Assembly: GCF_024171925.1 (NCBI RefSeq)
Contig: NZ_JAMTCO010000007.1
Span: 186,001-250,000, forward strand
Origin: Actinokineospora diospyrosa
Lineage (GTDB): Bacteria > Actinomycetota > Actinomycetes > Mycobacteriales > Pseudonocardiaceae
Direction of reading: 5' to 3'
DNA length: 64,000 nucleotides
Shown here: piece after piece, positions 1 through 12,817 of the stretch
Layout: each line of letters opens with the position of its first letter
Position numbering within the stretch: position 1 is the first letter of the stretch
Translations under genes and position numbers: made by a program
Notes under the pieces: model-generated
Told to the model about the DNA's origin: nothing
Seen by the model: only the letters and a program-made list of their open reading frames with translations
The model's database searches: none

Positions 1-2154
1 CACCCGCAGCACGTCATCCCGGAGCCGGGTGAGTTCCGCCAGCGCCACTGCCGCCCCCTCGGCCTTGCCCCGCCACATGGCCAGGTTGCCCCGGGTTCGC
101 AGCGTGGCCGGGTGGTCCGGCCCGAGCACCCGTGACTGGTCAGCGAGCAAGTCGAACAACGCGTCAACCGCCCCGACGGCGTCGCCCGCCATCCCACGGC
201 AGTCGGCGAGGCCCCGCCGGGTGATCAGGGTCGCCGGGTGGTCTTGGTCCAAGACCCGCAGTTGGTCGGCCAGCAGGTCCGCGTACGCCCGCGCCGCCGC
301 GACGGGGTCACCCGCGTCCGCGAGGCAGGCGGCGAGGTTGTTGCGCGTGGCGAGGGTGTTCGGGTGCTCGGGCCCCAACACCCGTCGTTGGTCGTCGAGC
401 AGTCCGGCGAGCTCGGCGACCGCGCCGGGCCCGTCCCCGGCAACTTGCCGCCAGTGCGCGAGGTTGTGCCGAGAGGCCAGCGCCAGCAGGTCATCCGGAC
501 CGAGGACACGCACGATGTCGTCCAATGCGGCCGTGTACTCCCGCACCGCGCCCGCGACGTCGCCCGCCACCCCAAGCCAATGGGCCAGTCCACACCGGAT
601 CCCGAGCGTGTCCGCGTTGTGCGGTCCGAAGACGCGCACGGCGTCCACCAAGAGGTCAGCGAGAATCGTTGTCGCGCAGGCGACGTCCCCGGATTCGCCT
701 CGCCACAGGGCCAGGCTGTTGCGGGCGAGCAGGGCGAAGGGGTGGTCCTCGCCGAGGACCCGAACCAGGTCCGGGAGCAGAGCGGCCAGGTCCCGCGCCG
801 CACCAGCGGAGTCCCCCAACTCGCCGCGCCAGCGCGCCGCGTTCTGCCGAGCGGCCAACGCGTCCACGTGGTCGGGACCGAGCCGAGCCTGCGCTTCCGC
901 GGCGATCTCCCGATAGCGCTCGGCCGCGGCAAGTACCTGTCCCGCGTTGCCCAGGCTGTCGGCGACGCGGAACAACAAGGCGTAACCCGGGGTGGTCCAC
1001 AAGTGCGGTCCGCAGTGCTCGGTCAACGCGATCGCGTTTGCCCGGAACACCGGAACCCGCTCAACCGCTGGCCAGCAGGACTTGAACGCGCCGACCAGCG
1101 GCCCGATCAGGCTGGGGAGGTCGTCGAGCTGCGCCCGGGTGGCGTGCTGGACCAGGGCGTGCGCCCGGATCAGCGGATCCGGCTCGCCGCCGACGGTGAT
1201 CAGGCTGAAGCGGCGGAGCGCGGTCAGGCCGCCTTCGGTGTCCACCCCCGGGGCGGCCGCGGCCAGCAGTGACAGCGGGATGCCGTCCGGGCTCAGCACC
1301 GAGATCACGTCGAGCACCGCCCTCGCGGCGCCGACGGGAGCGAGTCGATCGGCCGCCGCCACCGAGATCGCCCATGTTGTGACCACCGTGTCGCTGCGAC
1401 CGTCGGCGCTCGTCCAGTCGGTGGGGAACATCGCGTCCAGAGCCTCAGTGCGCCACTTCCGGACGTACTTGGCGTAGGTCATGCCCGGCACCATCGACAC
1501 GTACGCTGTGGCCTGCCCTAACGCCAAAGGCAGGTGGCCTAACAAGTTCGCCAGCTCTTCACCGGTTTCGCCCAGGTAGGACAAGGACTCCTCGGGCGTG
1601 AAGACCCGCAGGTCGACCATGAGGCGATCCGCCGCCCGCAGGGAGGGTTCGTTGCGGCGGGTGGTCACGACCAGCCTGCCGGTCTCGCGGGTGTGCGGCC
1701 ACAAGCCCACGATGTCCGCTGGATCGGTCAGGTCGTCGAACACCAACAACCACCGCTTGGTCGTGGTCGCGCACCAATCCAAGAAGGGCTTCTCGTCGTC
1801 GACCGGCTGACCGGTGACTACCGCCCCCAGCTCGGCGAACCCGTTGATCACCCCGGCCCTCGTTGACGCGGTGACCCAGCCCAGGAGTTCGACGTCGTGC
1901 GTTCGGTTGGCGTAGTCGGCTGCCAGTTGGGTCTTGCCCACGCCGCCCAGTCCGGACAGGACCACGCCACCCGCCGTCAACGCCTCGAGGTCCGGCACTG
2001 AGCGGGGCTGGAATCCGTCCACCACTACCGGCACTGCTCCAGACCTATAGGGCAGCCGTTGCTGTGGTGCGGCGTTGAAGTAGACGTTCCCGTGTACAGC
2101 GCCTGTCTGCAGGACGTTCCCCGAGACGTGCCCTGCCTGCACGTTCTCGGTCAT
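1..2154 (-). CDS. NB-ARC/TPR STAND-type signalling ATPase (C-terminus off window)
   Basis: The minus-strand frame is open from the ATG at 2154 to the window edge (718 codons, incomplete). The N-terminus has a Gly/Val-periodic stretch (GHVSGNVLQTG) typical of actinomycete NB-ARC proteins. The ATPase follows: P-loop GLGGVGKTQLA at about residues 66-76, Walker-B-like WLLVFDDLTDP at about 137-147, the TTR sensor in GRLVVTTRR, and GLPLAL-like GHLPLALGQ near 205-213. Beyond residue 400 come kinesin-light-chain-type TPRs with repeated LGPDH and HPATL signatures. STAND proteins are ligand-triggered oligomeric switches; ligand and output here are unknown. The start overlaps the P450 stop by 4 bp (ATGA), so the two are probably translationally coupled. 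Two rare TTA codons lie at 1540-1542 and 1519-1521, which could make translation depend on a bldA-like tRNA. Confidence 0.88.
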   Translation of the reverse strand, partial: MTENVQAGHVSGNVLQTGAVHGNVYFNAAPQQRLPYRSGAVPVVVDGFQPRSVPDLEALTAGGVVLSGLGGVGKTQLAADYANRTHDVELLGWVTASTRAGVINGFAELGAVVTGQPVDDEKPFLDWCATTTKRWLLVFDDLTDPADIVGLWPHTRETGRLVVTTRRNEPSLRAADRLMVDLRVFTPEESLSYLGETGEELANLLGHLPLALGQATAYVSMVPGMTYAKYVRKWRTEALDAMFPTDWTSADGRSDTVVTTWAISVAAADRLAPVGAARAVLDVISVLSPDGIPLSLLAAAAPGVDTEGGLTALRRFSLITVGGEPDPLIRAHALVQHATRAQLDDLPSLIGPLVGAFKSCWPAVERVPVFRANAIALTEHCGPHLWTTPGYALLFRVADSLGNAGQVLAAAERYREIAAEAQARLGPDHVDALAARQNAARWRGELGDSAGAARDLAALLPDLVRVLGEDHPFALLARNSLALWRGESGDVACATTILADLLVDAVRVFGPHNADTLGIRCGLAHWLGVAGDVAGAVREYTAALDDIVRVLGPDDLLALASRHNLAHWRQVAGDGPGAVAELAGLLDDQRRVLGPEHPNTLATRNNLAACLADAGDPVAAARAYADLLADQLRVLDQDHPATLITRRGLADCRGMAGDAVGAVDALFDLLADQSRVLGPDHPATLRTRGNLAMWRGKAEGAAVALAELTRLRDDVLRV

Positions 2155-3311
2155 ACGGCCACCGGCAGCGTTCGCAGGCCTCGGATCACGAACTCCGGCC
2201 GTCGCGCGGGTTCGGTGGCCAAGTGGAGAGTGGGCAGCTGCACCAGTGCCTGAAGCGCCGCCGCGATTTCGACGCGGGCCAGAGGAGCGCCCACGCAGTA
2301 GTGGATGCCCGCGCCGAAGCTCAAGTGCGGGTTCGGCGATCGTGTGATGTCGAAGCGATCCGGCTCCGCGAAGACCTCGGGATCCCGCGCCGCCGCGCCC
2401 AGCAAGGCGGCGATCTTGGCGCCAGGCTCCAGTTCCCACCCCGCGATGCTCACCGGCGCAGTGGCCGTGCGTTCGAACAGTTGCAGTGGAGCGTCGTAGC
2501 GCAGCAGTTCCTCCACTGCGGACGGCAGGAGCGACGGAGTCGCCACCAACAGGTCCCACTGGTCGCGGTTCAGCAGGAGCGCGAGCACCCCGTTCCCGAT
2601 CACGTTGACCGTCGCCTCGTGCCCGGCCATCAGCAGCAGCACGCCGGTCGCCACCAGTTCGTCGTCCGTCAACCGGTCTGAGCCGTCGCGGACCGCAACG
2701 AGGTCGCTGATCAGGTTGTCACCCGGCCGGGTGGCCAAAGCGCGCAAGTACTGGGAAAACTCCGAAGACGCCTGCTCGGCGGCGGCCGCTTGAGCTGGGG
2801 ACAGGCCGTACTCGTACATCTTCACGATCGCGTTCGACCACGGCCGCAGCAGGCCCCGATCCTCGGGCGGTACCCCCAGCAGCTCGCCGATCACCTCCAC
2901 CGGCAGCGGCTCCGCCAGGTGTTCCAGCAGGTCAGCGGACCCCTCGGCCTCGATCCGCGCCACCATCGAGGCCACCATCGACGACGCGAGGCGCTCGACC
3001 ATCGGGCGGAGTCGTTCGGTGTGGCCGCGGCCGAACGCCGCTGAGATGAGGCGGCGCAGGCGGGTGTGGGTTGGGGGTTCGTTCTCCAGCAACGAGTTGC
3101 GGTGCAGCATGTTGAACGCCGCGAACTCGGGCACCGGCTCCTTGTCCTTCCACAGCCTCCCCAGGCTGCGGTTGCGCAAGATGGCCGAACAAGCCGCGTG
3201 GGACACGGCCACCGGTAGGCCCAACTCCTCGTGCCAGAGGACCTCTCTCTCGTTGCGCATGGCTGCGAACGTGGGATACGGGTCGGCGACGAAGGACGGG
3301 TCGAGAGGCAC
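2151..3311 (-). CDS. cytochrome P450
   Basis: This 386-residue protein is close to the usual size of a soluble bacterial P450 (about 400). It shows the I-helix oxygen-activation motif (LLMAGHEATVN, about residue 227), the K-helix ExxR (EELLR) and the heme-ligand loop FGAGIHYCVGAPLAR with the cysteine thiolate ligand. P450s insert oxygen from O2 using electrons from ferredoxin; no redox partner is encoded nearby, so substrate and partner are unknown. The GTG at 3311 was chosen because the next residues already match the family N-terminus (DPSFVADPYPTFAAMR). It is the upstream gene of a two-gene unit: its TGA overlaps the ATG of the NB-ARC gene. Expression probably starts in the 94-bp divergent gap to the DUF5926 gene. 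Confidence 0.95.
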   Translation of the reverse strand: MPLDPSFVADPYPTFAAMRNEREVLWHEELGLPVAVSHAACSAILRNRSLGRLWKDKEPVPEFAAFNMLHRNSLLENEPPTHTRLRRLISAAFGRGHTERLRPMVERLASSMVASMVARIEAEGSADLLEHLAEPLPVEVIGELLGVPPEDRGLLRPWSNAIVKMYEYGLSPAQAAAAEQASSEFSQYLRALATRPGDNLISDLVAVRDGSDRLTDDELVATGVLLLMAGHEATVNVIGNGVLALLLNRDQWDLLVATPSLLPSAVEELLRYDAPLQLFERTATAPVSIAGWELEPGAKIAALLGAAARDPEVFAEPDRFDITRSPNPHLSFGAGIHYCVGAPLARVEIAAALQALVQLPTLHLATEPARRPEFVIRGLRTLPVAV

Positions 3312-3405
3312 CGATCCATCTTGCGCTACCCACAGCAGGAATGGTTATCCGCGATTGGGTAGCGTCGGCGCACATCGTTCACTGGTTTCGACGAGGAGTT
3401 ACCCG

Positions 3406-4362
3406 ATGTCCAGGCGATCCGCCGTGAAGAACGTGCGTAAGGCCAAGGCCCCGGACGCGTCGGGCATCGGTCCCCGCCAGCCTTGCCCGTGTGGGTCTGG
3501 CAAGCGCTACAAGGCGTGCCACGGCACGGCAGGTGGCGTGGTCGAGGTTGCCGTAGCCCGCCCGTTCGAGGGACTCGCGGGGGAGTGCGAACTGGTCGCT
3601 CTACGCGAGTTCGTCCCCTCCGGCACGGCAGCGCTACCGCTGGTCGGGCAGGAGCGCGAGATCACCCTCGCCACCGTGCTGCCCATGGCTGCGGCCGCGT
3701 TGGTCCGCGCTGACGGGATCGCCTACGTCGGCCTGCAGGTGCAGACCCGCTCCAGCGACATCAGCCGCGACCTGGCCCGCGCCGTCCGCTGGGCGCTGAC
3801 CGCCGAGCCCGGCGACGTGCTGCCGGTCGTCGGCCCGGACACCGACGCGGGGGACAAGCCCGAGCGGCTGCAGGACCTGGTCGCGATCGACGCGCCGCTG
3901 GAAGCCACCGTGCACACCGACTTCGCCTGGTGGATGCCTGCCGACAGCGAGCCGACCGGTGAGGTCGCGCTGTCGCTGGAGCGGGCGAACAGCGCCATCC
4001 TGCCCACCGAGCGGGTCGGCCCCGCCGCCTACTGGGTCGACGCGGGCGAGAAGGCGCACCTGCGCTGGGTCCGCCCCGAGCCCGAGGAGGACCTGCTCGC
4101 CGCGCTGGCCCGGCTGCACGCGCGCGGTGAGCTCGGCATCGGCGACGGCTCCCGGTACGCGGGCTCGTTCCGCGCGCACGGCCTGCTCGTCCCGGTGTGG
4201 GACCTCGACCGCGAGCCGCACGCCCGCGAGTGGACCGAGGCCGTCGAGCAGCTCGGCACCCGCCTCGACGCCGCGCTGGCCTCGCTCGCCGACGAGCCGC
4301 TGACCTACGACGAGCGCCGCGCCCGCGACGGCCTCCTCGGCCGCCAGATCACCATCCGGTGA
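3406..4362 (+). CDS. DUF5926 protein with SEC-C zinc-binding motif
   Basis: This 318-residue protein has a SEC-C-type zinc knuckle near residue 25 (RQPCPCGSGKRYKACHG), the Cys-rich motif also found at the SecA C-terminus. The remainder matches the DUF5926 family of Actinobacteria, whose function is not established. I chose the ATG at 3406 because GAGGAG lies 8 nt upstream, although the frame is open further 5'. No signal peptide or membrane segment is visible, so it is probably cytosolic. Its stop overlaps the GTG of the DUF952 gene (GTGA), forming a two-gene operon. The role of the zinc motif is inferred from homology only. Confidence 0.85.
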   Translation: MSRRSAVKNVRKAKAPDASGIGPRQPCPCGSGKRYKACHGTAGGVVEVAVARPFEGLAGECELVALREFVPSGTAALPLVGQEREITLATVLPMAAAALVRADGIAYVGLQVQTRSSDISRDLARAVRWALTAEPGDVLPVVGPDTDAGDKPERLQDLVAIDAPLEATVHTDFAWWMPADSEPTGEVALSLERANSAILPTERVGPAAYWVDAGEKAHLRWVRPEPEEDLLAALARLHARGELGIGDGSRYAGSFRAHGLLVPVWDLDREPHAREWTEAVEQLGTRLDAALASLADEPLTYDERRARDGLLGRQITIR

Positions 4363-4694
4363 TCCTGCACATCCGCGCCGCGGCGGACTGGCCAGCCGAG
4401 GAGATCCACCCGCTCGACGGCGAGGCGTTCGTGCACTGCTCCGACCCGGGAACCGTGCACCTGCCCGCCAACCGCCTGTTCGCGGGCCGGACCGACCTGC
4501 TCCTGCTGGCGGTCGACCCGGCTCGCCTCGGCGTCGCGCTCCGCTGGGAACCCGGGTCGCCGCCCATCCCCGGCGGCCCGTGGTTCCCGCACGTCTACGG
4601 CCCGATCCCGGCGTCGGCCGTGGTCGCGGTGCACGCGTTCCCGCCGGGTCCGGACGGCTTGTTCGAGCTGCCGGAAGCGCTCGCCCAGCGCTAG
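4359..4694 (+). CDS. DUF952 family protein
   Basis: This is a 111-residue cytosolic protein starting at GTG 4359, inside the stop of the DUF5926 gene. It carries family signatures: an LHIR...W start, the GEAFVHCSDPG segment near residue 25, and a WFPHVYGPIP segment near residue 75. DUF952 is a small widespread family of unknown biochemical function, sometimes linked to a glutathione-S-transferase-like neighbour. The coupled position suggests co-expression with DUF5926, but no pathway can be read from the context. Confidence 0.85.
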   Translation: MILHIRAAADWPAEEIHPLDGEAFVHCSDPGTVHLPANRLFAGRTDLLLLAVDPARLGVALRWEPGSPPIPGGPWFPHVYGPIPASAVVAVHAFPPGPDGLFELPEALAQR

Positions 4695-4730
4695 GCAGCA
4701 GCGGCAGATAACGGTGGCGTAACGCCCGGC

Positions 4731-4757
4731 AACCGGTTTCCGGGGCCGGGCGTGCTC
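4731..4757 (+). promoter_or_regulatory. candidate SigE-family/ECF-type promoter of lipoprotein A
   Basis: The upstream regions of the two lipoprotein genes share about 75 bp. The shared core is GGCAACCGG, then CGTGCTC, with 16 nt between AACC (4731-4734) and CGTGCTC (4751-4757). The same spacing recurs at 5505-5531. A further conserved block (ATAACGGTGG) lies just upstream. This looks like a -35/-10 pair for an alternative sigma factor, most simply the one encoded at 6333-6815. That assignment is inference. Confidence 0.5.
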
Positions 4758-4807
4758 TCGATGTCAGGGGCTGGACGGACCGGCCCCCGCGTCCAGGGGG
4801 AACCACA

Positions 4808-5473
4808 ATGTCGAAGAAGTCGTTGCTGCACAAGGGTTTGCTGGTCGTCATCGCGGCGTCCGGGTTCGCGTTGGCCGCCTGTAGCGCGGACCCCGCCCCG
4901 GCCGCCGCGCCCGCCCCGACCACCACCACACAGACCACCGCCACGCAGGCCGATGCAGCGACCCCGACCCCGGCGGACGTCCCAGCCGCCGTCCCGGTCG
5001 CACCAGCCGCGCCGTCGAACACCCCGGCCAAGCCCGCCGCGCCCGCGAAGCCGGAGGCCGCCAAGCGCACCGCGATCCTCGGCCCGGACGGCTTCGGCTC
5101 GCTCAAGCTGGGCATGACCGCCGAGCAGGCCCTCGCCACGGGCCGCATCCTGCCGCAGACGCCCGGTGGCTCGCCCGCGCCGTGCACCATGTACCGCGCG
5201 CCGGGTCAGCCGGACAACTCCTACTCGGTCGGCATCTCCGACAAGGACGGCGTCGTGCTGATCTTCGGCTACGGCGGCGCCCGCACCCCGGAGGGCATCG
5301 GCATCGGGTCGACCAGGGCCCAGGTCAAGCGCGCCTACCCGAAGCTCGAGGACGGCCCGAACCACTCCGGTGCCGCCGTTCCCGGTCACCCGGGCACCGC
5401 CTACGGCTTCGCCATCGTCGACGACAAGGTGACCCAGCTCTGGCTCGACCGGAACCAGAACTGCGTCGGATGA
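4808..5473 (+). CDS. lipoprotein A with shared sensor-like domain
   Basis: A 221-residue lipoprotein. It has a basic N-terminus, a hydrophobic stretch and a lipobox (ALAAC, Cys near residue 26), then an Ala/Pro/Thr-rich linker to about residue 90. The C-terminal domain of about 120 residues has FGSLKLGM at its start, GGARTPEGIGIGSTRAQV in the middle and ends in NCVG. The same domain recurs in the next lipoprotein and in the membrane protein at 6815-7564, with two conserved cysteines in each copy. It is presumably anchored on the outer face of the membrane. No known enzyme motif is visible and the function is unknown. The ATG is preceded by a GGGGGA ribosome site. Confidence 0.85.
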   Translation: MSKKSLLHKGLLVVIAASGFALAACSADPAPAAAPAPTTTTQTTATQADAATPTPADVPAAVPVAPAAPSNTPAKPAAPAKPEAAKRTAILGPDGFGSLKLGMTAEQALATGRILPQTPGGSPAPCTMYRAPGQPDNSYSVGISDKDGVVLIFGYGGARTPEGIGIGSTRAQVKRAYPKLEDGPNHSGAAVPGHPGTAYGFAIVDDKVTQLWLDRNQNCVG

Positions 5474-5504
5474 CCGGCGACATAACGGTGGGATCACGCC
5501 GGGC

Positions 5505-5531
5505 AACCGGTCAGCCGGGCCCGGCGTGCTC
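5505..5531 (+). promoter_or_regulatory. candidate SigE-family/ECF-type promoter of lipoprotein B
   Basis: A paralogous copy of the promoter at 4731-4757: AACC at 5505-5508, a 16-nt spacer, and CGTGCTC at 5525-5531, with ATAACGGTGG upstream at about 5482-5491. Conservation at identical spacing while the intervening bases vary argues for functional promoter elements. Confidence 0.5.
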
Positions 5532-5580
5532 CCGGTGTCGACGGTTGGAAGGCCCGGCCACGACATCGAGGGGAATCACC

Positions 5581-6279
5581 ATGTCCACCAAGTCGTTGCC
5601 GCGCAGGGGGTTCGTCGCGGCCATCGGCCTGCTCGCGATCGCCGCCTGCAGCGCCGAACCGCCACCGGGGGCCGCGCAGGCACCTAGTTCGGCCGCCGCA
5701 GTGTCGAGTTCTGCAGAGTCGAGCGCTGCGGTGTCGAGCGCTGTGGTGTCGAGTCCCGCGAGCGCCCCCGCGGCAGCCGCCCCCGTCGCCCCGCCCGCCG
5801 CCACTCCCACCACGTCGGCCACTCCCACGCCCGCGATACGGGTGCCCGTCAAGTACGCACCGGTGATCGGACCGACCGGCTACGGGTCCCTCACGCTCGG
5901 CATGACCCTGCGGCAGGCCGTCGACACCGGCCGGGTCCTGCCGCCCGACCAGCTCTCCGACGTCGCCGAGCCCTGCCGCCTGCTCCGGGTGCCCGGCCAG
6001 GTGACCGGTCTGCGGGTCGGGCTCATCGACGGCGTCGGCGTCGTCTCCATCCCCGGCTACGGCGGCGCCCGGACACCGGAGGACATCGGCCCCGGTTCCA
6101 CCAGGGCCCAGGTCAAGCGCACCTACCCGGGGTTCAGGGAGTGGTCTGGCGGCATCGCCGTCGCCGTCCCCGGCCACCCGGCCAACCAGTACGCGTTCGA
6201 CTTCGGCGGCGCGGACCTCGACGACGACCGGGTGGGCAGCGTCGAGCTGTCGGTCAAGGACCGGGGCTGTGCCGGGTGA
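5581..6279 (+). CDS. lipoprotein B, paralogue of lipoprotein A
   Basis: A 232-residue lipoprotein starting at ATG 5581 behind GAGGGGA. It has a signal sequence with lipobox (AIAAC near residue 22) and a long Ser/Ala-rich linker made of repeated SSAAV-like units. The C-terminal domain (YGSLTLGM, GGARTPEDIGPGSTRAQV, final CAG) is clearly related to lipoprotein A and to the C-terminal domain of the anti-sigma-like protein. It probably arose by tandem duplication that included the promoter. It lies 53 bp before the sigma-factor start and may be co-transcribed with it. Function unknown. Confidence 0.85.
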   Translation: MSTKSLPRRGFVAAIGLLAIAACSAEPPPGAAQAPSSAAAVSSSAESSAAVSSAVVSSPASAPAAAAPVAPPAATPTTSATPTPAIRVPVKYAPVIGPTGYGSLTLGMTLRQAVDTGRVLPPDQLSDVAEPCRLLRVPGQVTGLRVGLIDGVGVVSIPGYGGARTPEDIGPGSTRAQVKRTYPGFREWSGGIAVAVPGHPANQYAFDFGGADLDDDRVGSVELSVKDRGCAG

Positions 6280-6332
6280 CTGACATGATCATGCTCGCTG
6301 CTGCACGCGAGGTCGAGGGGGAGAGCGCGGCG

Positions 6333-6815
6333 ATGGAGGAGTTCGCGGACTTCGTCGCGGGCGCGATGCCGGGCCTGCTGCGCTACGGCCACGCGCTCAC
6401 CGGCAACCCGCACGACGCGGCCGACCTGGTCCAGGGTGTGCTGGAGAAGATCGGTTCGCGGTGGTCGGCGGTGGTCCGCAAGGCGGGTGATCCGCTCGCC
6501 TACACCCGCCGCGCCATGGCCAACGCGCACGTCAGCCGCTGGCGGCGCACCCGGCGGGAGAACCTGGTCGCCGACGTGCCCGAGGCCCCGGCCGACCGGG
6601 TGCGCTACGCCTTCGAGGACGAGCCGCTGTGGCAGGCGCTGCGGGCGTTGCCGCCCAAGCAGCGGGCCGTGGTCGTGCTCCGCTACTACGAGGGCCTCTC
6701 CGAGGCCGAGATCGCACAGACCCTGGGCGTCAGCGCGGGGACGGTGAAAAGCCAGGCCAGCAAGGCCATGGCGACACTGCGGACGCGACTTGGCGCGCCC
6801 GCGGAGGGCAGGTGA
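6333..6815 (+). CDS. SigE-family (ECF-type) RNA polymerase sigma factor
   Basis: A 160-residue sigma factor. Region 2 contains HALTGNPHDAADLVQGVL near the N-terminus. Region 4 contains the helix-turn-helix LPPKQRAVVVLRYYEGLSEAEI plus GVSAGTVKSQ. This is the layout of the actinobacterial SigE-family group. I chose ATG 6333 because GAGGGGGAGA sits about 9 nt upstream; ATG 6285 would add 16 residues and has no clear ribosome site. Its stop overlaps the start of the membrane protein downstream, the usual sigma/anti-sigma layout. It likely directs transcription from the two AACC-N16-CGTGCTC promoters (inference). Confidence 0.9.
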   Translation: MEEFADFVAGAMPGLLRYGHALTGNPHDAADLVQGVLEKIGSRWSAVVRKAGDPLAYTRRAMANAHVSRWRRTRRENLVADVPEAPADRVRYAFEDEPLWQALRALPPKQRAVVVLRYYEGLSEAEIAQTLGVSAGTVKSQASKAMATLRTRLGAPAEGR

Positions 6816-7564
6816 TGGGCATGGACATCGACGACGAGCTGCGCAGGTTGTTCGCCGACGACCGGCTGGACCTCCCGGTCCGCCCCGGCGCGACGGACGC
6901 CGTGGTCACCGGTGCCGGTAGGCGGCGCAGGCGGCGGCAGGCGGTCACGGCCGCGAGCGGCGTGCTCACCGCGGTGGCCCTGCTGATCGGCGGTATCACG
7001 CTCGGCGGGCTCAACACCTCGTCCGCCCCACCCGGCCAGCAGGTCTTGCCGACGCTGACCACCACGACCGTCCAGGCCACCAAGGTCGCCGCACCGCCGA
7101 CCTCCACCGTGGTGATCTCGCAGATGACGGGCAGCAGCATGTCCGGCTCGGTCAGCACCGTGCCGGAGTTGCGGCCCGCCGGGTTCAGCAAGATCCGGCT
7201 CGGGATGTCGGTGGCGGAGGCCGAGGCGACCGGGGAACTGGTCGCGCTCGAGGTGAAGTCGCGGGACTGCAAGGCCTACAACTTCAAGGCTTACACCGCG
7301 GAGAACTCGATGGCGGTCGGCATCTCACCGACCGACGGCGTGGTGGCGATCTTCCCGCCGCCCGGGGCGCGCACCCCCGAGGGGATCGGCCACGGCTCGC
7401 CCGAGGCCGATGTCCGCAACGCCTACCCGGCGGGCACCACCGACGCGCACGGTTACTGGATCGTCGACCTGGGCGATGGCAAGGCCTACTCGTTCGGGTT
7501 CGGCCGGGACAAGGCGGTCACCGAGATCGGGCTCTACAGCGACAAGCAGATGTGCTTCGGATAG
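6815..7564 (+). CDS. membrane anti-sigma-like protein with the lipoprotein-type extracytoplasmic domain
   Basis: A 249-residue protein. The cytoplasmic N-terminus is about 45 residues (MDIDDELRRLFADDRLDL), then an Arg-rich stop-transfer stretch and one membrane segment at about 48-68. A Thr/Ser/Val-rich linker leads to a C-terminal domain homologous to those of the two lipoproteins (FSKIRLGMSVAEAEATG, GARTPEGIGHGSPEADV, final CFG). Position and topology fit a transmembrane anti-sigma factor, but the N-terminus lacks an obvious zinc-binding HxxxCxxC motif, so the call rests on context. The ATG at 6815 overlaps the sigma stop and has GGAGGG upstream. The shared domain suggests that the sensor and the lipoproteins recognise the same ligand. 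Confidence 0.75.
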   Translation: MGMDIDDELRRLFADDRLDLPVRPGATDAVVTGAGRRRRRRQAVTAASGVLTAVALLIGGITLGGLNTSSAPPGQQVLPTLTTTTVQATKVAAPPTSTVVISQMTGSSMSGSVSTVPELRPAGFSKIRLGMSVAEAEATGELVALEVKSRDCKAYNFKAYTAENSMAVGISPTDGVVAIFPPPGARTPEGIGHGSPEADVRNAYPAGTTDAHGYWIVDLGDGKAYSFGFGRDKAVTEIGLYSDKQMCFG

Positions 7565-7568
7565 CCAG

Positions 7569-7603
7569 AAGACGGGAGCGGGCCTGGGGGCTGCTCCCGT
7601 CTT
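7569..7603. terminator. bidirectional hairpin terminator
   Basis: Perfect 11-bp inverted repeat AAGACGGGAGC/GCTCCCGTCTT with a 13-nt loop, just after the anti-sigma-like stop. It is convergent with the ferritin gene. Short direct repeats (CTCGCTGTTAGA) follow at about 7632-7656. Confidence 0.75.
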
Positions 7604-7652
7604 CGTCTTACCGCTAGAGCCAGCTGCTGCAGCTCGCTGTTAGATCTCGCTG

Positions 7653-8183
7653 TTAGAGCTTGCCGCCCGCGGCGCGCGGCGCCAGCGGGTCGTCGCCGTT
7701 GTCACCGACGTGCTCGCGGGCCAGGTGCGCCTCGACGTCGAACAGGTTGCCGTTGGAGCGCTTGACGACGTTGAGCAGGGTGCGCATCGAGGCGACTTCC
7801 TCGACCTGTTCCTTGAGGAACCACTGCATGAACTGCTCGCCCTTGTAGTCGTCCTCGTCCCTGGCGACCTTGGCGAGGTTGACGATCTCGTCGGTCACCG
7901 CGCGCTCCTGCTGCAGCGCGAGGGTGACCAGCTCGGCGGCGTCAGCGAACTCGTTGCGCACCTCGTCGACACCGGGCACGGACACCGGGACGTCGTTGTC
8001 GAGCAGGTACTGGGTGAGCATCATCGCGTGGTTGCGCTCTTCCAGCGACTGCCTATAGAAGTGGTGGGCCAACCGGGGGAGGTCTTGGCCGTCGAACCAC
8101 ACCGCCAGCGCGACATACTGCTGGGACGCGGTGAACTCGTTGCGGATCTGCACCTGCAGCAGCTTGTGGAACTTGGAGGTCAT
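7653..8183 (-). CDS. ferritin (BfrB-like iron-storage protein)
   Basis: A 176-residue ferritin similar in size to the mycobacterial heme-free ferritin BfrB. Helix A carries the ferroxidase glutamate (QIRNEFTASQQY) and helix B the ExxH pair (SLEERNHAMML); later glutamates (LQQERAVTDEI, FLKEQVEEVASM) complete the di-iron centre. Twenty-four subunits would form a cytosolic shell oxidising Fe2+ and storing ferric mineral. Upstream there is an IdeR-like box at 8282-8300 and a weaker half-match at 8252-8270. This resembles known mycobacterial bfrB control, where iron-loaded IdeR activates through tandem boxes. Regulation here is inferred from sequence. Confidence 0.95.
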   Translation of the reverse strand: MTSKFHKLLQVQIRNEFTASQQYVALAVWFDGQDLPRLAHHFYRQSLEERNHAMMLTQYLLDNDVPVSVPGVDEVRNEFADAAELVTLALQQERAVTDEIVNLAKVARDEDDYKGEQFMQWFLKEQVEEVASMRTLLNVVKRSNGNLFDVEAHLAREHVGDNGDDPLAPRAAGGKL

Positions 8184-8281
8184 GCCCTCAGACGGTACGC
8201 GATTGCCGCGCCTATCGCGCTATTCGTCCCCCATTTCGGCGGCCATTTTGATCACGTTAGGCAAGGCTGTGGAAACATAAT

Positions 8282-8300
8282 TCAGGTTAGCCATTCCTAA
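8282..8300. promoter_or_regulatory. IdeR/DtxR-like iron box
   Basis: The 19-mer TCAGGTTAGCCATTCCTAA matches about 15 of 19 positions of the IdeR/DtxR consensus, allowing S at the centre. It lies in the gap between ferritin (minus) and a 32-residue membrane protein (plus). A second partial match with core GTTAGGC spans 8252-8270. Confidence 0.6.
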
Positions 8301-8415
8301 GTCGTGGGCCCTGCTTCACCGCATCGTGCGACACGCTCCGGGCGGCGGGACCGCTTGCCGGGTGCGAGGATCGCCCGGCACGGCAAGCCCCGACGACCTG
8401 GAAGGGAGGCGCACC

Positions 8416-8514
8416 GTGGAATCCGACTGGCGCTGGTACACCGCAGCGGCTTCGATGATCTTGGCCGTCTTCGGCACGCTCACCTTCCTCGCCCTGCGCT
8501 GGTTGCTCTCGTGA
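8416..8514 (+). CDS. 32-residue single-span membrane protein
   Basis: A small gene starting at GTG 8416 with an excellent ribosome site (GAAGGGAGG at 8401-8409, 6 nt spacing). After a polar N-terminus (ESDWRWYTAA) the remainder forms one hydrophobic helix ending RWLLS. It diverges from ferritin and shares the gap containing the IdeR-like box, so it may be iron-responsive. I do not recognise a family. The strong ribosome site and clean membrane helix argue for a real gene. Confidence 0.6.
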   Translation: MESDWRWYTAAASMILAVFGTLTFLALRWLLS

Positions 8515-8561
8515 ACAACTCGGCGCCGGGAAAAGGTAGCCTCGCCTAACCGAATGCCATT

Positions 8562-9797
8562 CTAGAGCGGATCGCGCGACACCGGGCAGGACATGCACCG
8601 CGGACCGCCGCGGCCGGTGCCCAGTTCCGAACCGCTGATCCGCAGCACCTCGATTCCCGCGTCCTCCAGCCGGGAATTGGTTTCCACGTTGCGCTCGTAG
8701 GCGACGACCACGCCGGGGGCCAGCGCCAGCGTGTTGTTGCCGTCGTCCCACTGCTCGCGCTCGGCGGTGACCGGGTCCAGGCCGGTGTCGATCACCCGCA
8801 GCCGGTCGATGCCCATCGCGGCCGCCGCGGCCTCCAGGAACGGCGCGGGCCCGTCGACGCCGACACCGCTCCCGCTGGGGCGCAGCGTGTAGGCGCGCAG
8901 CGTGTCGCGCACCGCCGGGTACATGACCACGGCGTCGCGGTCGACCATCGTGCAGACCGTGTCCAGGTGCATGGTCGCCCGGTCCTGCGCGATCGGCACC
9001 GCCAGCACGGTGTGCGCCAGGCCGTCGCGGAAGGCCGAGCGGGCCAGCGACTCCGCGCCAGCGGGGGTGGTGCGCTCGCCGACCCCGATCGCGATGACCC
9101 CGGGGGCCAGCAGCAGGACGTCGCCGCCCTCGACGGGGGCGGAGTGGGCGCCGTACGCGCGGCCCGCGGTGCGGAAGCGGGGGTGGTAGGCGTAGATCAG
9201 GTCCAGCAGCGCGGTCTCCCTCGCGCGCGCGGGCATGGCCAGCGACGCGATCGCCACCCGGTCGCCGATCCAGACCGACGAGTCCCGGGTGAACAGCAGG
9301 TTCGGCAGCGGGTCGACCACGAAGTCGTGCGGGTGGTGCATCTTGCGCACCAGCGACGCGCCCTCGGCCGCGGGCAGCTCCTCGAAGGTCATCCCCCCGG
9401 TCAGCACGTCGGCGAGCCCCTTGGCGTCCACAGTGGACAGGTATCCGCCCAGCGCGTCGGCGAGCTCGTTGCCCAGCCTGCGCCGGTCGACGGCGGTGGC
9501 GGCGGCCGCGGCGTGCGCGCGCTCGTCGGCCAGGGCGACCACCAGGCTGTCGAACAGCCGCATGACCTCGACGCCGCGCGCGGTCAGCACGTCGGCGAAG
9601 GCGTCGTGCTCGTCCTGGGCGCGGTCGACCCACGGGATGCTGTCGAACAGCAGCTGGTCGTTGTTGCGCGGGGTCAGCCGCTTGAGCTCGTTGCCCGGGC
9701 GGTGCAGCAGGACCGTGCGCAGCGGGCCGACCTCGCTGTCCACGCGCGGTGCTGGCGCTGGCTGCTCGGCATCGGGGACATCGGGGAAGGCGGTCAC
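8562..9797 (-). CDS. arcA: arginine deiminase
   Basis: A 411-residue enzyme hydrolysing L-arginine to citrulline and ammonia. Family landmarks are [15 protein letters not shown] near the N-terminus, [10 protein letters not shown] mid-protein, [10 protein letters not shown] with the catalytic His region, and the C-terminal nucleophile cysteine in [10 protein letters not shown] placed the start at GTG 9797 because TACGCT (minus strand, 9810-9805) lies exactly 7 nt upstream, fitting a leaderless promoter. The frame extends to GTG 9866 without a ribosome site. No arcB, arcC or arcD is adjacent, so it acts outside a classical ADI operon in this window. Confidence 0.93.
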
Positions 9798-9912
9798 GGC
9801 TTCGAGCGTAACCACTCGGTAAGGAAAACACCGCCCGCGATGGGGTCTAATGGCGGAGAACGCCACACATCGCCACGCCGATATACCGATCGTTAACTGA
9901 AAGGCCGAGTTG

Positions 9913-10467
9913 ATGCGTCAAACGTTGCGTCGGAAGCTGCTTTGGGGCGGCATGGTCGCCGTCGTTCTGGTCGCAGGCGTCGGATTGTGGTTGTTCCAGC
10001 CGTGGAAGCTGTTCACCCGGAGCACGGTGGACGAGGCCCTCCCGTTCGTCTCGACCACCACGGTGGCGTCGGTCGTCGCCACTGCGCCAACCGCGGTCCC
10101 GACCACCACGGTTAGCCCTACCGGGCCCAGGGTGCTCGCGGAGGGTGCTTTCGTTAGCCAGGAGCACCCCACCAGCGGTACGGCCCGCGTCCTTGAGCAG
10201 GACGGCACCCGCATCTTGCGCCTAGAAGGCTTCTCCACCTCCGATGGCCCCGACGTCCACGTGTGGCTCTCCGCTACCCCCGCAGCCGCCGACTGGAAGG
10301 CCTACAACAGCACTCGCCACGTAGCCCTGGGCAAGCTCAAGGCCACCGACGGCAACCACAACTACGCCATCCCCGTCGACGCCGACCTCGCCGGGCTTCA
10401 GAGCGCTGTTATCTGGTGCGACCGCTTCAACGTCGCCTTCGGGTCCGCGCCTCTTAGCCTCACTTAG
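9913..10467 (+). CDS. membrane-anchored DM13-domain protein
   Basis: A 184-residue protein with a basic N-terminus, one membrane helix at about 12-30, a Thr/Val-rich linker and a DM13 domain from about residue 75. Typical DM13 features are [15 protein letters not shown], the [11 protein letters not shown] strand, [15 protein letters not shown] and the conserved [16 protein letters not shown] end. DM13 domains are found on the cell surface in bacteria and eukaryotes and have been proposed to have a redox role, but no activity is proven. It faces outward if the signal anchor is not cleaved. It diverges from arcA and converges with the LigD-polymerase gene, overlapping its end by 4 bp. Confidence 0.9.
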
Positions 10468-11375
10468 GCGGGCAGCTTGGGACCCTTCTTAAGCAGCGGG
10501 GCGAAGAGGTCGCCGTGGGTGGAGACGCGGTCCAGGACGTCGTCGGCGGTGAAGGTGACGTCGGCGACGGAGCGGCAGGACTCGACTTCGGCCCAGGTCA
10601 GCGGGGTCGATACGGTCGGCTCGGGCCGGGCTCGCAGTGAGTAGGGCGCGACCGTCGTCTTGTTGGGGTTGTTCTGGCTCCAGTCGATGAAGATCTTGCC
10701 GCGGCGGAGGTTCTTGGCCATCCGGGAGACCACCAGGCGCGGCATCTCGCGCTCTAGCCGCTCGGCGAGGGCCTTGGCGTAGTCGGAGGTCCGGTTGGGC
10801 GTGCTGGTGGTCACCGCGGCGTAGAGCTGCATGCCCTTGGACCCGCTCGTCTTCGCGACCACGTCCAACCCGTCCTCGACCAACACCTCCCGCAGCCGCA
10901 GCGCCACCTCGCAGCACTCGACCACCGTCGCGGGGGAGCCCGGGTCGAGGTCGAACACCAGTCGGTCCGGCGACCTCTTAGCCCCACGCGGACCAACCGT
11001 CCACTGAGGAACATGGAGCTCAAGCCCGGCCAGGTTCGCTGCCCACACCAGGGATGGCAGGTCGCTGAGCAGCGCGAAGTCGAGGCTCTCGGCGCCGGTA
11101 GTGCTGCCGGGAGTCTCTATGGTCACCGTGCGGATCCAGTCAGGGGAGTGCCTAGAGGCGTTCTTCTCGAAGAACCCCGCCTTGGCGACACCGTCGGGAA
11201 ACCGGCGGAACGTCACCGGTCGGTCGATCAAGTGCGGCGCGAGCACGGGTGCGACCCGGCTGTAGTAGTCGATCACGTCGCCCTTGGTGAAGCCGTCCTC
11301 CGGGTAGAGCACCTTGTCGAGGTTGGTCAACCGCAGCCGCCTGCCCTCGACCTCGACGAGCACCTCGCCGCTCAC
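10464..11375 (-). CDS. non-homologous end-joining primase-polymerase (LigD polymerase domain)
   Basis: A 303-residue archaeo-eukaryotic primase superfamily polymerase, the stand-alone form of the LigD POL domain. It has VTFRRFPDGV and FFEKNASRHSPDWI near the N-terminus, the metal-binding DLDPG motif (LVFDLDPGSPAT) and the SGSKGMQLY nucleotide loop, as in mycobacterial PolD proteins. It adds templated or untemplated (ribo)nucleotides at double-strand break ends. Its GTG overlaps the stop of the ligase gene upstream (GTGA), so both are made from one transcript. The ribosome site AGGTGGGA precedes the start. No ku gene lies in this window. Confidence 0.93.
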   Translation of the reverse strand: MSGEVLVEVEGRRLRLTNLDKVLYPEDGFTKGDVIDYYSRVAPVLAPHLIDRPVTFRRFPDGVAKAGFFEKNASRHSPDWIRTVTIETPGSTTGAESLDFALLSDLPSLVWAANLAGLELHVPQWTVGPRGAKRSPDRLVFDLDPGSPATVVECCEVALRLREVLVEDGLDVVAKTSGSKGMQLYAAVTTSTPNRTSDYAKALAERLEREMPRLVVSRMAKNLRRGKIFIDWSQNNPNKTTVAPYSLRARPEPTVSTPLTWAEVESCRSVADVTFTADDVLDRVSTHGDLFAPLLKKGPKLPA

Positions 11376-12817
11376 CCGTCCCACCTGCCTGGATCCGCCG
11401 CTAAGTCCGACGGGTCCTTGTCGGCCCGTAAGCCCCGCCACGTCGGCGCCCGCATCCGCCCGTCGTCGGTCCAGTGCAGGAACGCGACCTCTCCCACCAA
11501 GCTCGGGGTGACCCACTGCGCCCCGCGCACCCGGTCCACGTCATTGCAGAACGGCGACGTCTTACGCGCGAGCCGGTGCAGCTTCTCCGTCAGCGTCTTA
11601 AGCATGTGGTCGGTGAACCCGGTCCCAACATGCCCCACATACCTGAGCCCCTCAGGCGTAGGCAGCCCTACCAGCAGGGAGCCGAACACCTCAGAGCGTC
11701 GCCCCTCCCCAGGCCGCCAGCCGCCGATGACCACCTCTACAAAGCGCTGATCAGTGATCTTGAGCCACTCGGAGGCACGCCGACCCGGGTGATAACGCGA
11801 CCCGAGCCGCTTGGCGATGATCCCTTCTAGTTCCTGCTCGCGAGCCGTCTCCAACACCGCAGCGCCCTCGCCGGGGTAGCTAGGCGATGTGTTCCAGTGC
11901 GGCCCACGCAGGTTCAGCGCGACCAATCGCTCCCGCCGCGCGGTGTAAGGCAAGTCGAGACAAGAGCGGCCGTCGAGGTGCAGCACGTCGAACACCACGT
12001 ACGTCACTGGCGTGTCTACCGCCAGCCGCCGAGTCAAACGCTCCTCGGTGACGTGCATCCGTTTCTGGAGTTCGGAGAAGGAGGGCCTGCCATCGCGAAA
12101 AGCCACGATCTCACCGTCGAGCCACACCTGCGTGCTGCCCAGCTCCTCACCCAACACGCGCAACTCCGGGTACGTGCTGGTGATGTCGTTCCCCTTACGC
12201 GAGAACAACCTCAGCCGGCCACCATCCACCCTGGCCAGCGCGCGAACACCGTCCCACTTGAACTCGTACGCCCACTGCTCGTCGTCCGCGGGCAGCGCAC
12301 CCGGGCTGGCCAGCATCGGCTCAAACACGGCAGGTAGGGCTACCCAGTCCGACCGCTGCGGCGGCTCTGACCGACGAACCATCCAGTCCTTGTCGGACTT
12401 TCCCCCGTGGAAGAAGGTGTACTTGCCCTGCACCCGCGAGCCGGACAGCACTACCGCCACCTCGCGGTCGCTCCACTTGACCGTCTCGTAGGTGCCCCGG
12501 TCCCAGATCACCATCCGACCACCGCCGTACTCGCCCTTGGGGATGTCGCCCTCGAAGGTCGCGTACTCCATCGGGTGGTCCTCGGTGTGCACCGCCAACC
12601 GGATGTCACCCTGCTCGGTCGGCAGCCCCCTGGGCACCGCCCAGCTCACCAGCACGCCACCGCGCTCAAGCCGGACGTCCCAGTGCAGCCTGGACGCGTG
12701 GTGCTCCTGGATGACGAAGGTGTTGTCGTCCCCGACCGGCAGGGCGTCCTCGACCGGCACGGGCTCCGGAGTCTTCCGGGCGTCGCGCTTGCGCCGGTAC
12801 TCGCCCAGCCCCGCCAT
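11372..12817 (-). CDS. ATP-dependent DNA ligase with 3'-phosphoesterase domain (LigD-like)
   Basis: A 481-residue two-domain protein. Residues 1-155 form a LigD 3'-phosphoesterase domain (FVIQEHHASRLHWDVRLE with the catalytic histidines, WAVPRGLP, GEYGGGRMVIWDRG). Residues about 165-481 form the ligase: nucleotidyl-transferase lysine in FKWDGVRALAR, LDGEIVAF, EGIIAKR and an OB-fold ending FLHWTDDGRMRAPTWRG. It seals breaks after end cleaning. Together with the coupled polymerase gene it makes a split version of the three-domain LigD. The partner Ku must be encoded elsewhere. Confidence 0.95.
   Translation of the reverse strand: MAGLGEYRRKRDARKTPEPVPVEDALPVGDDNTFVIQEHHASRLHWDVRLERGGVLVSWAVPRGLPTEQGDIRLAVHTEDHPMEYATFEGDIPKGEYGGGRMVIWDRGTYETVKWSDREVAVVLSGSRVQGKYTFFHGGKSDKDWMVRRSEPPQRSDWVALPAVFEPMLASPGALPADDEQWAYEFKWDGVRALARVDGGRLRLFSRKGNDITSTYPELRVLGEELGSTQVWLDGEIVAFRDGRPSFSELQKRMHVTEERLTRRLAVDTPVTYVVFDVLHLDGRSCLDLPYTARRERLVALNLRGPHWNTSPSYPGEGAAVLETAREQELEGIIAKRLGSRYHPGRRASEWLKITDQRFVEVVIGGWRPGEGRRSEVFGSLLVGLPTPEGLRYVGHVGTGFTDHMLKTLTEKLHRLARKTSPFCNDVDRVRGAQWVTPSLVGEVAFLHWTDDGRMRAPTWRGLRADKDPSDLAADPGRWDG

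Follow-up and report, generated by a model that had tools for sequence, protein, structure and literature searches.

Two lipoproteins share the outer domain of a predicted anti-sigma factor in a SigE-family sigma module of Actinokineospora diospyrosa

Genomes such as that of Actinokineospora diospyrosa carry extracytoplasmic function (ECF) sigma factor genes in plenty, and the signals of few are known. Among the closest described systems, the RsgI anti-sigma factors of Clostridium thermocellum have outer C-terminal domains (CBM, GH10) of a kind found on regulon proteins (PMC4711584). In Bacillus subtilis, the outer part of RsiV binds a protein ligand, lysozyme, directly (PMC4183432), and in the sigE-cseABC operon of Streptomyces coelicolor, the signal rises when the lipoprotein CseA is lost (PMC6767563); these and later statements on published work follow excerpts of the sources cited. 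Here, we report a module of four plus-strand genes in the 8.1-Mb A. diospyrosa genome (GCF_024171925.1), located in a window of 64,000 nucleotides (contig NZ_JAMTCO010000007.1, positions 186,001 to 250,000, forward strand). It encodes two lipoproteins (Lp1 and Lp2), a SigE-family ECF sigma factor, and a membrane protein, the presumed sensor, whose outer domain recurs in both lipoproteins. We read the module, with a probability of roughly 0.55, as an autoregulated cell-surface signalling system in which Lp1 and Lp2 share a ligand with the sensor, act as effectors, and damp the signal.

Lp1, Lp2, and the membrane protein end in homologous C-terminal domains of ~130 residues. The original prediction had placed one such domain on every product of the module except the sigma factor, and BLASTP bears this out (E values of 8e-19 for Lp1 and 2e-11 for Lp2 against the membrane protein and 4e-34 for Lp1 against Lp2). 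By the lipobox rule, both lipoproteins start with a hydrophobic stretch (signal peptide) followed by the lipobox cysteine. The two cysteines described earlier as conserved in the domain are present together in 148 of 153 related domains. Four domains miss the second cysteine; three of them (L239 at 3995, L248 at 3953, and L253) have no signal peptide, and the fourth (L239 at 5213) begins with no more than a weak signal-like stretch. A redox-sensor role was considered and is not favoured, since exported copies and sensors keep the pair alike; with the second cysteine missing mainly from copies without a signal peptide, the pattern fits a structural extracellular disulfide. The three signal-peptide-less copies, from three genomes of one genus (g17), are possibly a cytosolic version. 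Each has GCAACC-N16-CGTG upstream (the start of L253 was set by hand), and L239 and L248 adjoin paralogues.

Of 100 genomes sampled from the host's bacterial family (the family sample), 60 have the domain; across the phylum, it was found in 2 of 149 genomes, one of them that of A. diospyrosa. Protein searches add isolated matches beyond the family in Actinoplanes, Thermoactinospora, and Streptomyces. From the family sample, 80 neighbourhoods with 97 domain genes were taken, and 13 weak or partial profile-search rows were left out. A second set, overlapping the first in species, comprised 34 loci found in named genomes via the N-terminal motif of the membrane protein (the partner of the sigma factor); these named loci belong to Actinokineospora, Amycolatopsis, Umezawaea, Prauserella, Herbihabitans, Lentzea, Actinophytocola, Kutzneria, Streptoalloteichus, and Sciscionella. 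Gene order is conserved: a sigma open reading frame (ORF) lies directly upstream of the partner gene at all 34 named loci, where 31 partners carry the domain. The 97 domain genes divide into 54 with the partner N terminus, 7 module-linked exported or membrane-anchored copies, and 36 unlinked genes, mostly with signal-peptide-like starts. Partner-type genes stand directly behind a sigma gene in 51 of 54 cases, and the other 3 (one genus) stand directly upstream of one. The expected co-occurrence of domain and sigma gene is found for the partner-type genes, and the stronger version, that the two always occur together, fails on the 36 unlinked genes.

Upstream of the two lipoprotein genes, the motif AACC-N16-CGTGCTC was read at 4731-4757 and 5505-5531, as the original prediction had it. 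Its interpretation as a promoter is strengthened by recurrence of the motif before sigma genes, lipoprotein genes, and some unlinked exported genes, all as predicted sites. GGCAACC and GCGTG are retained upstream of Lp1, Lp2, and their orthologues, where AACC and CGTG are 16 bases apart. The strict motif (GCAACC-N16-CGTG) lies directly upstream of the module at 24 of 34 named loci, a count that includes three loci whose partner is without the domain (L042, L044, and L045) and two near-identical contigs of one strain (L023 and L043). In the family sample, 28 of 51 sigma genes have a copy no farther than 330 nt upstream (20-base block shuffle mean, 0.02; other strand, 0). An unsearched G is found at −1 in 30 of 31 distinct site sequences, and a G precedes CGTG in all 31. 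The 11 SigE-family sigma genes of the same genome that score next best have no copy of the motif at their loci (1.5-kb flanks). From this conservation, we infer that both lipoprotein promoters, P1 and P2, depend on the sigma factor. Two Umezawaea loci (L016 and L021) have two or three stacked strict copies upstream of sigma, and L021 has a further copy before a downstream domain gene.

Both predicted promoter sites sit within inverted repeats (Table 1), a feature that had not been mentioned before. The base-pair swap between the two repeats preserves arm pairing, and the arms are also perfect in Actinokineospora baliensis. With a position some 25 to 30 bp past stop codons, such repeats could instead end the preceding gene or bind a dimeric regulator, and the supposed promoters would then be terminators or operators. 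We consider this very unlikely, as the arms are mismatched in Actinokineospora globicatena (1 of 8 pairs) and Actinokineospora terrae (2 of 8 pairs) while GCAACC and CGTG are retained, the motif recurs with varied spacer sequence before sigma genes of other genera, and the repeats are without a T tract and were not scored as terminators. The wider motif does not include the inverted repeat. For the repeats themselves, a role as operator or attenuator has been raised.

The motif allows the regulon to be read from sequence. Across 16 Actinokineospora genomes, GGCAACC-N15-GCGTG was found at 56 sites in the 8 with the module (reversed-pattern control, 19) and at 14 sites in the 8 without it (control, 21), a contrast that does not amount to 16 independent points, as the module-bearing genomes may be mutual kin. 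In A. diospyrosa, GCAACC-N15-GCGTG occurs at chance (14 sites versus 13 in the control) and GGCAACC-N16-CGTG at 27 sites versus 13; a one-mismatch scan of the window was no better than shuffles (14 versus a mean of 10). On these counts, only sites in promoter position were used. A first search pattern, based on the spacer, was dropped as too narrow. A rule for calling exported genes was applied to 48 of the 56 sites (of the other 8, four belong to the modules themselves, L186 was read separately, and three were left out). It flagged 11 of 48 loci in module genomes, L091 and L092 being one site, against 2 of 14 where the module is absent. Besides the modules, 10 sites in five Actinokineospora genomes precede exported genes, namely, tachylectin-like genes (L101 and L106 in A. 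diospyrosa; L156 and L158 in A. baliensis), SdrD_B-like genes in three genomes (L150, L175, and L182), a lone domain lipoprotein gene (L152, same locus as L050), and two other secreted-protein genes (L149 and L173); L149, L150, and L182 were classed as exported by reading rather than by rule. The two predicted tachylectin promoters of A. diospyrosa are at G000:C13:272224 and G000:C21:51089. At L201 (G000:C13:272100-274100), two tandem tachylectin-like secreted genes, the second read by eye, follow a predicted promoter of the module type.

Lone domain genes were covered as well. No strict motif was found at the lone lipoproteins L052, L060, L061, L062, and L064. Of the 36 unlinked domain genes in the family sample, 13 are preceded by GCAACC-N16-CGT[GC] at a distance of 20 to 130 nt (dinucleotide-shuffle mean, 0.04), with 4 matches ending in CGTG; for L253, the homologue of the start Met of L239 and L248 was taken by hand as the start, and these counts would otherwise be 12 and 3. 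Start codons of the other lone domain genes were set by a scoring rule. Lp1 and Lp2 are, judging by their upstream sites, very probably members of the sigma factor's regulon.

Exported copies have been gained repeatedly beside the sensor. In Actinokineospora (A. diospyrosa, A. globicatena, A. terrae, and A. baliensis), the lipoprotein copies lie upstream of sigma. In Lentzea, one to three tandem lipoprotein copies lie downstream of the anti-sigma gene at many loci but not all, and Umezawaea endophytica has one linked, non-lipoprotein copy downstream of that gene. A tree of 63 domains, which includes the lipoproteins of A. globicatena, A. terrae, and A. baliensis missing from an earlier tree, groups the 5 Actinokineospora copies (support, 100/98) and places the 17 Lentzea and Umezawaea copies in three places; a single clade for all 22 linked copies is rejected (p-AU, 0.00217). 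The linked set was fixed before this tree yet after the earlier one was known, and L037 was assigned to the anti-sigma class by hand. Because the copies fall in separate places and a single clade is rejected, the pairing of sensor and exported copy would have arisen about four times, or else losses or transfer, which the tree does not separate, reshaped it. An arrangement seemingly built several separate times in related bacteria suggests that sensor and lipoproteins bind the same target. In one genus (g35), three loci (L213, L215, and L217) have an extra membrane-anchored domain copy directly upstream of the sigma gene, with one motif copy before the extra gene and a second before sigma.

Repeated recruitment next to the sensor, along with the common domain and the single operon, would also suit the main rival to the shared-ligand reading, in which the lipoproteins are co-sensors that touch the anti-sigma factor through like-with-like domain contact, shield it or expose it to proteases, and may meet the ligand first. 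RseB acts on RseA in this manner, and CseA is suspected of acting so on CseC. In the Streptomyces sigE operon, the sigE promoter is more active when CseA is lost, and contact with the outer part of the sensor has been suggested (PMC6767563). We regard a co-sensor role as doubtful, since identity between the would-be partners in A. diospyrosa is distant (41% and 29% over aligned parts for the two lipoproteins against the membrane protein) and unlinked copies occur in many genomes, in some without any module found, so that the domain has work independent of the sensor.

Searches of Pfam and NCBIfam gave no family above cut-off for the domain, and no Pfam family matched more than 1 of 63 domain members at an E value of 0.5 (CAP_assoc_N, 1 member; E value, 0.22). 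A PDB sequence-profile search with the domain gave two chance-level matches (best E value, 0.032; heat-shock protein). Structure prediction, recommended by the original prediction, was carried out for the domain of the membrane protein (pLDDT in Table 1). The modelled fold is likened to YfeY, CAP-associated, and YjgB domains and more weakly to BamE and BLIP, and it resembles a two-repeat BamE/BLIP/YfeY-like fold. Foldseek returned nothing at an E value of ≤0.001; Escherichia coli YfeY (PDB 2qzb) matched with an E value of 0.0096 and 12% identity, and we know of no sensor that carries the domain of YfeY. Matches to BLIP and BamE had low Z scores over ~60 aligned residues, a likeness that carries no evidence of beta-lactamase or Bam binding. 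The domain forms a family without a Pfam entry, now with a predicted fold. So varied a set of envelope and secreted proteins would agree with simple re-use of a general envelope-protein part, which the envelope targets of the sigma factor happen to share and which implies no feedback; the published E. coli sigmaE regulon includes YfeY (PMC2731931), and the tachylectin-like and SdrD_B-like predicted targets do not carry the shared domain. Re-use of this kind appears improbable, as the A. diospyrosa genome has three copies, every one within the module (whole-protein search and 63-row profile), and several independent gains beside the same sensor are unlikely under neutral pairing.

The sigma factor is the top match of its genome to TIGR02983 (168.3 bits; cut-off, 141.55), which settles the earlier assignment to the SigE family, and it carries ECF regions 2 and 4 only (Sigma70_r2, 24.5 bits with a cut-off of 24; Sigma70_r4_2, 69.6 bits; 176 aa); Sigma70_r2 has 60 matches in the genome. 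Of its candidate starts, ATG 6333 is more likely than ATG 6285, because GAGGGGGAG precedes it and the TIGR02983 match begins at residue 14 of the longer form. We infer that the membrane protein is the inhibitor (anti-sigma factor) of this sigma. Its predicted layout comprises a helix at residues 5 to 13 and a helix at 26 to 61 that runs into the membrane, both of moderate confidence, an Arg-rich stretch, a low-confidence linker, and a folded part from about residue 117; the closest named relative is that of A. baliensis (73%). No Pfam or NCBIfam family, recognised anti-sigma families included, exceeded its cut-off for the protein, and the ~45 cytosolic residues compare with an average of 101 for class I anti-sigma domains (PMC7406223), both of which would be expected if the protein were instead a sigma co-activator or made no contact with sigma at all. 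That possibility is slight, given the gene order with a 1-nt overlap between the sigma and membrane-protein genes, the cytosolic motif DDELRRLF-DDRL conserved in partner proteins, and the existence of short two-helix (class II) inhibitors such as CnrY (PMC7406223).

The following sequence of events is proposed. At rest, the membrane protein would hold the sigma factor via its short cytosolic helices. An extracytoplasmic ligand meeting the outer domain would release sigma, probably by cutting of the anti-sigma factor, and freed sigma would transcribe from GGCAACC-N15-GCGTG promoters that precede both its operon (Lp1-Lp2-sigma-anti-sigma) and the genes of other exported proteins, including secreted tachylectin-like ones. 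Lp1 and Lp2 would bind the ligand, or ligand class, of the sensor at the membrane surface and, as response effectors that take ligand from the sensor, could also lower the signal. We prefer ligand binding by the lipoproteins because clostridial RsgI offers a precedent; if effectors bind a shared ligand, decoy damping would follow. The lipoproteins may compete for the ligand of the anti-sigma domain, or present it, as the original prediction put forward. More tentatively, the module may be a decoy-receptor-like circuit, gained several times independently, in which sigma tunes the strength of the response by driving the production of surface-anchored receptor copies. The sensor domain behind it would be one not described before and found for the most part in a single actinobacterial family.

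Besides the possible kinship of the module-bearing genomes, several points weigh against the shared-ligand, autoregulated reading. The strict motif is missing at 23 of 51 sigma genes, and even GCAAC-N16..18-CGT is missing at 15 of 51. In the A. diospyrosa module, no strict copy lies between Lp2 and sigma, so that sigma must be read from P1 or P2 or from a promoter not seen. Most whole-genome motif sites fall inside genes and appear to be chance. Among unlinked domain genes, 23 of 36 are without a GCAACC-N16-CGT[GC] match, 9 of the 13 matches end in CGTC and may answer to another ECF sigma, and 2 of the 13 (L272 and L273) come from genomes that yielded no partner-type gene. The cytosolic segment of the membrane protein matches no known anti-sigma family, and the divergence of the domain copies (mostly 20 to 40% identity to the sensor's domain) gives no demonstration of a shared ligand.

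Table 1. Features of the sigma factor module (positions in the window)
Feature	Position	Strand	Remarks
Inverted repeat 1	4723-4752	.	Overlaps P1; perfect 8+8 bp arms
P1, predicted ECF promoter	4729-4754	+	Upstream of Lp1; GCAACC-N16-CGTG (-35/-10-like); recurs before relatives' sigma genes
Lp1	4808-5473	+	221 aa; lipoprotein, lipobox LAAC; C-terminal shared domain encoded at ~5069-5470
Inverted repeat 2	5497-5526	.	Overlaps P2; perfect 8+8 bp arms; one base pair swapped versus first repeat
P2, predicted ECF promoter	5503-5528	+	Upstream of Lp2; GCAACC-N16-CGTG
Lp2	5581-6279	+	232 aa; lipoprotein, lipobox IAAC; C-terminal shared domain encoded at ~5854-6276
Sigma gene	6333-6815 (alternative start, 6285)	+	SigE-family ECF sigma factor
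Anti-sigma-like membrane protein	6815-7564	+	249 aa; ~45 cytosolic residues, 1 transmembrane helix, disordered linker, C-terminal shared domain
Extracytoplasmic shared domain of membrane protein	7160-7561	+	Modelled, pLDDT 93
Terminator-like hairpin with T-rich tail	7585-7599	+	3' of module; weak (1 in 4300-7800; shuffle mean, 0.6)

Seven in-frame neighbour ORFs (2154-12817) encode a P450, a DUF5926/SEC-C protein, a ferritin, an arginine deiminase, a DM13 protein, and two LigD-type proteins; no two-component system was found among these seven (an eighth ORF, ~4360-4694, lay outside the scan). The ferritin gene (PF00210; 7653-8183, minus strand) is directly beyond the module, and the two minus-strand LigD-type end-joining genes (10464-12817) encode a primase-polymerase (PF21686) and a phosphoesterase-ligase (PF13298, PF01068, and PF04679).

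The original prediction knew of no described system with this arrangement. Literature searches turned up none among the papers listed; the claim is tempered by clostridial RsgI, whose outer carbohydrate-binding domains are of a type found on regulon proteins (PMC4711584). If the decoy-receptor-like circuit is real, it would be a bacterial counterpart of soluble decoy receptors, and feedback through receptor copies becomes testable in this module. As secreted and lipid-anchored proteins carry the outer domain of the sensor too, the ligand of the sensor could be fished with easily made baits. Like the module, the sigma-I/RsgI systems combine an anti-sigma factor whose outer domain is of a kind common to regulon proteins with an autoregulated sigma (predicted here) and a co-transcribed pair, but they use sigma-I rather than a SigE-family ECF factor, sense plant polysaccharides, and have the shared domains on enzymes and scaffoldins, with no mention in the excerpt of tandem lipoproteins of the same operon (PMC4711584); by Pfam, in which the module's outer domain has no family over cut-off, the RsgI outer domains are unrelated to it. 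SigV/RsiV likewise comprises an ECF sigma and a membrane anti-sigma factor with one helix, but the outer domains are DUF4163/DUF3298, and the excerpt mentions no adjoining lipoprotein copies (PMC4183432). The sigE-cseABC operon also places a lipoprotein gene with an actinobacterial envelope-stress ECF sigma but has a two-component kinase as sensor and no anti-sigma factor, its sigE promoter is no sigmaE target, and the excerpt makes no mention of a domain common to CseA and the sensor (PMC6767563). Set beside these systems, the module is a predicted sigma/anti-sigma pair of familiar type, distinguished by a new sensor domain and by a regulon that can be predicted from sequence.

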